Assembly (NCBI GenBank): GCA_902766935.1
Contig: CACXFR010000116.1
Location: 1-45,016 of the forward strand
Source of the DNA: an uncultured Planctomycetota bacterium
GTDB taxonomy: Bacteria; Planctomycetota; Planctomycetia; Pirellulales; Thermoguttaceae
Direction of reading: 5' to 3'
Length of the DNA: 45,016 bases
Shown: positions 27,591 through 28,417 of the stretch, in pieces
How the letters are laid out: the number at the start of each line of letters is the position of its first letter
Position numbering within the stretch: the first letter of the stretch is position 1
Position numbers and translations under genes: made by a program
The notes under the pieces: model-generated
The model's input: the letters and a program-made list of their open reading frames with translations, nothing else
The model's database searches: none
What the model was told of the DNA's origin: nothing

Positions 27591-27630
27591 GCTTTGGAAA
27601 GGGCGCGCGTTCCCGAAACGGGACGGCGGC

Positions 27631-28065
27631 TCAAAGATCGGAATTCCGTCCCCCGTCGGGTCGGAACCGCTGGTAGATCTCCCCCCGCAGGATCGCGATG
27701 TTTTTCGGAGCGTCGAAACCCAAATATACCCTGCGGGAGCAAACCTCGGTAATGCGGATCTCAATGCTGCCGCCGATCACGATTCGCCAATCCTTCCCTC
27801 CGAGAAAAATCAGATCCCCTCTTTTCCACGGAAGGCCTGCGAGCTCGGCGGCACTTTCGTCTCGGCCGTTCCTCCGAGCGGAAGAGGGAGATTCCGGTCC
27901 GTCCCCGGCTCGGGTTTGGGGGTCGGTTTCTTTCGGAAAGACCCGAACGTCCCTCGTCGTCCTGATCAGAATCGGAACGGTTCCGTTGTCCATACAGCCG
28001 GCGATGATCGTGATATCATCGTCGATGATAACGCTTTCGCGCTCGCGACGCATCAAAACTAACAT
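27631..28065 (-). CDS. csrA: Double-domain CsrA: two fused CsrA-like RNA-binding units
   Basis: CsrA is normally a 60-70-residue homodimer that binds GGA hairpins in mRNA leaders and controls translation. This 144-residue protein contains two CsrA-like units: residues 1-46 (MLVLMRRERESVIIDDDITI start; DVRVFPKE end) and about 84-134 (GGSIEIRITEV, GFDAPKNIAILRGEIYQRF), joined by a charged 37-residue linker. Compared with E. coli numbering, unit 1 keeps Leu4, Arg6 and Arg7 but has Pro at position 44. Unit 2, offset by 83 without gaps, has Gly89-Gly90 in place of Arg6-Arg7 but keeps Arg127 (= Arg44). So one complete strand-1/strand-5 RNA-binding face could form and the other not. ATG at 28065 behind AGGAG. 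It lies between ispF and the chaperone operon, all on the minus strand. Confidence 0.85.
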   Translation of the reverse strand: MLVLMRRERESVIIDDDITIIAGCMDNGTVPILIRTTRDVRVFPKETDPQTRAGDGPESPSSARRNGRDESAAELAGLPWKRGDLIFLGGKDWRIVIGGSIEIRITEVCSRRVYLGFDAPKNIAILRGEIYQRFRPDGGRNSDL

Positions 28066-28417
28066 ATTTATTTCTCCTGGCTGAACCGAGAGGCGCCCTC
28101 CCGTCGGCGGTCGGGCCGAGGGTCGGAAACGAACTCAAATGAAAAAAATCGGATATCCCTTTCCCTATGGTATCGAGTCGATTCCGCGCGCCTTTATGAA
28201 AAAAATCTTTCGCGGCGTCCGCCCCGGCGAGGGGGCGGAAACTCGATCCCGATCCGCTTGTCCGGGAAGTATGATACTAACGAGCCGAAACGAAGGTAAA
28301 TAATAAGATTCCAAAAAACCGATTTCGGCCGATTTTTTCGAAAAAAAAACGTTGGTTTGGAATGCCGGAAGAAAAAACGGGCGGTCCGAACGAACCGGGG
28401 GCGTCCTTTGCGCGCGG
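28066..28417. other. 352-nt intergenic region between ispF and csrA
   Basis: No ORF is credible here. It includes the csrA ribosome binding site, A/T-rich runs at 28330-28350, a weak hairpin followed by a T6 run on the minus strand (28396-28372), which may terminate ispF, and a weak -10-like TATCAT (about 28277-28272) that may serve csrA. No stable structured RNA was recognised. Confidence 0.4.

Follow-up and report, generated by a model that had tools for sequence, protein, structure and literature searches.

A gene for two CsrA units in one chain

The window analysed here (positions 1 to 45,016 of contig CACXFR010000116.1) carries on its minus strand an open reading frame of 144 codons followed by TGA (27631..28065), with its ATG at 28065 and its stop at 27631-27633. 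A Shine-Dalgarno sequence, AGGAGA, can be read 7 nt upstream of the ATG (28073..28078, minus strand). The Pfam CsrA profile PF02599 matched the 144-residue product in two stretches at 75.6 bits against a curated cut-off of 27, and this double match is not a chance result because the domain-wise scores were 35.9 and 45.3 bits. On these profile scores the protein is a member of the CsrA superfamily, and because it fell below both NCBIfam equivalog cut-offs (NF002469 and TIGR00202; 65.6 of 73 and 62.1 of 70.1 bits) it should not, by sequence, be named CsrA itself; we refer to it as double CsrA.

Unit 1 (residues 1-46; 27928..28065, minus strand) matched profile positions 1-46 at the lower of the two scores, and unit 2 (residues 84-134; 27664..27816, minus strand) matched positions 11-50 at the higher one, with the domain-wise match spanning 27786-27667. 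A charged linker of 37 residues (residues 47-83; 27817..27927, minus strand) joins them in one frame, with no stop or internal start between the units. The units are identical to each other at 6 of 46 residues, and each has 13-22 residues in common with ordinary CsrAs of related genomes. Codon preference was in frame in both units and uninformative in the linker, and codon bias was weaker than in the neighbouring genes (third-position GC of 0.66 versus 0.70-0.82). The original prediction of a real 144-residue frame holding two CsrA-like units was borne out, and the strand, which it had left unstated, is now fixed as minus.

Such a chain could also come from an assembly or sequencing error that joined two csrA genes, given that the source genome is a draft and that a class relative (G879, locus L209) possesses adjacent, separate csrA genes with stops between them. 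We regard this as very improbable. A single missed stop fusing two ordinary genes is ruled out because the linker and second half offer no in-frame start codon before V96, inside unit 2, and because unit 2 opens with DLIFLGG, without the 'ML'. The low identity between the units also speaks against an error, as does the loss of different residues in each unit (see below), which one error cannot produce. An error of this kind had been named at the outset as something that would overturn the prediction, and the evidence runs against it.

The source genome (83% complete, 267 contigs) holds two ordinary CsrAs besides double CsrA (C47 and C176; profile search), and a profile search of the same 83% complete genome returned no match for FliW. 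Most genomes of the order possess several csrA genes, with up to 14 matches per genome.

Reciprocal loss of RNA-contact residues

In the CsrA/RsmE dimer, each RNA site is built from strand 1 of one protomer and strand 5 of the other. To evaluate these half-sites we compared both units with a reference profile of 26 non-redundant CsrAs from related genomes, using the contact positions that PMC3791407 and PMC7652899 describe for complexes of RsmE and of RsmN and adding positions 7, 37, 38 and 43 as neighbours. Among the near-invariant positions, unit 1 retained M1, L2, V3, L4, R6 and E10, as well as R7, and carried L, T, T and P at G33, A36, P37 and R44, with the C-terminal alpha1 helix gone. 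Unit 2 carried F, G and W at L4, R6 and E10 (F87, G89 and G90 standing at L4/R6/R7) and retained the equivalents of G33, A36, P37, K38 and R44, the last of these being R127, together with the helix. The residues first singled out at this locus (L4/R6/R7/P44 in unit 1 and F87/G89/G90/R127 in unit 2) were thus read correctly, and the reciprocal loss proved wider than had been claimed, reaching all mapped RNA contacts and including G33/A36/P37 and the alpha1 helix, which had been missed.

Combining the half-sites across units gave two very different composite sites. Site A joins beta1 of unit 1 (residues 2-7, LVLMRR; 28045..28062, minus strand), whose contact score of 12.0 lies just inside the range of the 26 real CsrAs (minimum 11.8, median 18.4), to residues 119-127 of unit 2 (APKNIAILR, corresponding to CsrA 36-44; 27685..27711, minus strand), where the C-terminal contact score was 21.3 and the real-CsrA median 24.9. 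Site B joins beta1 of unit 2 (residues 85-90, LIFLGG; 27796..27813, minus strand), which has lost L4, R6 and R7 and scored -5.1 against the minimum of 11.8 among real CsrAs, to the beta4-beta5 loop and beta5 of unit 1 (residues 36-44, TTRDVRVFP; 27934..27960, minus strand), in which A36, P37 and R44 are lost. Composite site A scored +33.3 bits, within the range of real CsrAs, and composite site B scored -9.8 bits, which matches the anticipated pattern of one intact and one dead site; the two symmetric RNA sites of a CsrA dimer are predicted from these scores to be lacking. Swapping units at random at each contact position equalled the A-B difference in 0.12% of trials, under a null model that treats positions singly when neighbouring residues may be lost together.

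Each unit has hydrophobic residues at all 12 core hydrophobic positions, and the contacts are kept at one site; the chain has therefore preserved the fold in both units and a single RNA surface. Overall conservation of unit 1 is weak past residue 21. Subfunctionalisation rather than decay, as originally proposed, is a possible reading whose basis is the retained hydrophobic core. Both losses adjoin the fusion junction, and the pattern might stem from the fusion and not from selection on RNA binding.

Predicted fold of the two units

AlphaFold2 run with an alignment gave a model of the whole 144-residue chain at pLDDT 79 and pTM 0.66, with five strands predicted in each unit and a helix in unit 2 (residues 128-134). 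The aligned rows covered unit 2 only, and despite having no row of its own unit 1 reached pLDDT 79-90 per ten-residue block, its strands being modelled at residues 2-6, 10-14, 18-22, 30-35 and 40-43. The linker was modelled at low confidence (pLDDT about 56-63 over residues 51-80). From single sequence, AlphaFold2 gave an almost identical set of strands with less confidence (pTM 0.57), so that both units folded as CsrA halves with and without an alignment.

A Foldseek search of the model against the PDB yielded no significant match, and CsrA came up only on realignment. CsrA and RsmE chains in the PDB then fitted model residues 81-139 with an rmsd of 1.6-1.9 over 53-57 residues, at modest Z scores of 5.1-5.7. 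The expected superposition on known CsrA/RsmE structures was accordingly seen for unit 2, the only part that these fitting chains span. Larger beta-sandwiches matched model residues 1-129, which suggests that in the model units 1 and 2 are packed into one sandwich.

The same data allow the chain to be divided differently, with beta1-beta2 of unit 1 and beta3-beta5 of unit 2 forming one composite CsrA, the middle 83 residues being an insertion between beta2 and beta3, and two chains dimerising to give two working sites. MAFFT, unprompted, placed residues 1-21 of a short CsrA on unit 1 and residues 22-46 on unit 2, and chain 4kji_B of RsmN matched model residues 1-131 (Z 4.2, 50 aligned). RsmN/RsmF of Pseudomonas aeruginosa (4KJI) resembles double CsrA as a divergent CsrA relative with inserted sequence and the key Arg kept, and despite its beta2-beta3 insertion it is a two-site dimer (PMC3791407). 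It differs, however, in being a true two-site homodimer of 71 residues with one CsrA unit per chain (PMC3791407). A composite alignment around an RsmN-type inserted helix between beta2 and beta3 can be made, but the model has CsrA strands there, and the middle part was modelled as CsrA strands in both AlphaFold2 runs. The middle also keeps the CsrA core, at V30, I32, I34, V40 and V42 of unit 1 and at positions 2, 12, 14, 18 and 20 of unit 2, and we consider an RsmN-like dimer a poor bet on this evidence.

A candidate one-site regulator

The reading that we favour, at a probability of roughly 60%, is that the chain forms a pseudo-dimer within itself and has one functional GGA site, so that the original interpretation is upheld in part. 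Double CsrA would then be a post-transcriptional regulator of CsrA fold that is made as a single chain, in which units 1 and 2 pair with each other like the protomers of CsrA/RsmE to form two sheets, beta1A-beta4B-beta3B-beta2B-beta5A and the one with A and B exchanged. Site A would take L2, V3, L4, R6 and R7 from beta1 of unit 1, and unit 2 would contribute A119, P120, K121, I123, I125, R127, I130 and R133 from its beta4-beta5 loop, beta5 and helix; being intact, site A is predicted to bind one GGA motif. Site B, with F87, G89 and G90 of beta1 in unit 2 facing T36, T37 and P44 of unit 1 and no helix, would be dead. With site A intact and site B dead, each chain would bind one RNA, and we infer that the protein would sit on GGA sites one at a time and would not bridge a pair of them. 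It may act by covering a Shine-Dalgarno sequence and so repressing, or alternatively it may compete for the sites of the two ordinary CsrAs that the genome encodes.

The closest functional parallel is with laboratory dimers. R44 and L4 are key RNA residues of CsrA, and two-pocket bridging of two GGA sites is held to be necessary for full repression at some targets (PMC7652899). Mercante et al. 2009, as reviewed in PMC7652899, introduced R44A into one or both polypeptides of the CsrA dimer, and dimers with R44A in one polypeptide lost both bridging and full repression. These dimers possess one working and one dead site, as double CsrA would, but are engineered and consist of two separate chains. 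By analogy with such one-site dimers, double CsrA should bind single sites. Compared with the CsrA/RsmA/RsmE homodimers (PF02599, TIGR00202; for example the RsmE-hcnA complex 2JPP), double CsrA has in common the five-strand unit, the site A contacts and the predicted arrangement, and differs in carrying two units in one chain, in the apparent loss of one site and in its sub-equivalog scores.

A further step, which we hold only tentatively and at somewhat less than even odds, is that double CsrA is a natural, genetically encoded monovalent CsrA, in which fusion allowed each half to give up one half-site and turned a bivalent bridger into a one-site binder whose action differs from that of the cell's ordinary CsrAs or opposes it. 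If true, a natural one-pocket single chain would reveal what effects monovalent binding can have, and could serve as a ready-made single-chain framework in which to study the two CsrA sites separately.

Other tandem CsrAs in the class

To search for further tandems we built a profile from the 144-residue protein and artificial concatenations of real CsrAs and ran it on samples from the order, phylum and class, most genomes being only sampled. In a control, synthetic tandems were recognised as whole sequences in nine of nine cases; since some of them registered solely as a pair of separate stretches, the profile may overlook tandem CsrAs, and divergent ones can escape it. At 1e-28 the order and phylum samples yielded only the double CsrA of the source genome, and the class sample yielded G982, G870 and the split pair in G879.

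G982/L210 encodes 393 aa (L210:1501-2679, plus strand), a double CsrA that continues in frame into a TIGR02996 domain and leucine-rich repeats, a partnership that would not be expected for CsrA. G870/L211 encodes 182 aa (L211:1489-2037, minus strand), with two CsrA units behind a 45-residue N-terminal extension. Both resemble double CsrA in carrying two units in one chain with a joint of about 30 residues (37 in double CsrA), and unlike it both of their sites look intact: L4, R6, A/S36-P37 and R44 are present in each half, and the composite sites, two per protein, score 28-45 bits. Unit-to-unit identity was 21/51 in G982/L210 and 30/51 in G870/L211, and their identity to double CsrA was 25-28%, with no sign of orthology. 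The two adjacent csrA genes of G879/L209 are 44/51 identical and in the same frame, and plausibly represent a stage before fusion.

Because the class holds two more in-frame tandems, CsrA fusion is, by sequence, recurrent there, with asymmetric loss seen once so far. The original prediction had called for homologues of this length class with R6/R7 and R44 lost reciprocally; fused tandems do exist, but their R6 and R44 are not lost reciprocally. As they show no sign of orthology they do not refute the asymmetry of double CsrA, and their residues indicate that asymmetry is no rule of tandem CsrAs. These symmetric tandems would provide a matching two-site control for double CsrA. Our literature searches found no report of a tandem, double or fused CsrA.

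Origin of the double-CsrA gene

The gene sits within roughly 820 bp of additional sequence (27593..28411) for which two close congeners, G001 and G003, have no counterpart between groEL and ispF. Blastn of the groEL-ispF gap against these genomes matched only at both edges, stopping near 27592 and resuming near 28412, and the gap measures 1049 bp here, 316 bp in G001 and 274 bp in G003; the groEL of G001 is 99% identical to that of the source genome. Congener G004 has a groEL-ispF gap without csrA, and G002, G005 and G006 have other sequence upstream of groEL. We found no transposon-like repeats at the edges of the insert and no second copy of it in the source genome.

Protein queries identified no orthologue of double CsrA among 60 relatives, 119 family genomes and 397 order genomes, nor did searches of genome-contig, viral-contig, phage and plasmid collections. 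Long open frames in three family genomes (G105, G108, G026) were rejected as orthologues, being single CsrAs with tails. Weak repeated CsrA hits in 616-657-residue frames (G000:C224 and, in congeners, L005, L050, L052, L053) were likewise set aside as a chance likeness, since they look like the S1-type repeats of a ribosomal protein S1-like protein.

Occurrence in a single genome, one that is 83% complete and in 267 contigs, the absence of the segment from two congeners and the lower third-position GC would all fit a young or decaying gene, in which two unlike CsrA copies were fused by chance and drift without a selected function. We judge this unlikely, in that the frame and Shine-Dalgarno are intact, both units carry the in-frame codon signal, and every core position and one site's contacts are preserved, a selectivity that drift would not produce.

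No double CsrA was present among 110 loci from viral CsrA scans, and tandem queries run against plasmids and phages gave only single CsrAs, matched twice. Foldseek against viral models (BFVD) matched phage proteins of 81-160 aa across both units at probability 1.00 and 9-20% identity, including A0A6G5YEX0, A0A6J5RUQ1 (named carbon storage regulator) and A0A2I7RQV3; judged from the models, these are possible single-chain CsrA pseudo-dimers. Congener G006 carries a divergent CsrA ('MLCITRYPGESF...APGEVKVLRTELL'; L051:1501-1716) amid phage-like genes, and viral contig IMGVR_UViG_3300033407_000007 (L117) carries a CsrA whose RNA-binding strand is duplicated in a short tandem (EVSVHRREVSVHRREV).
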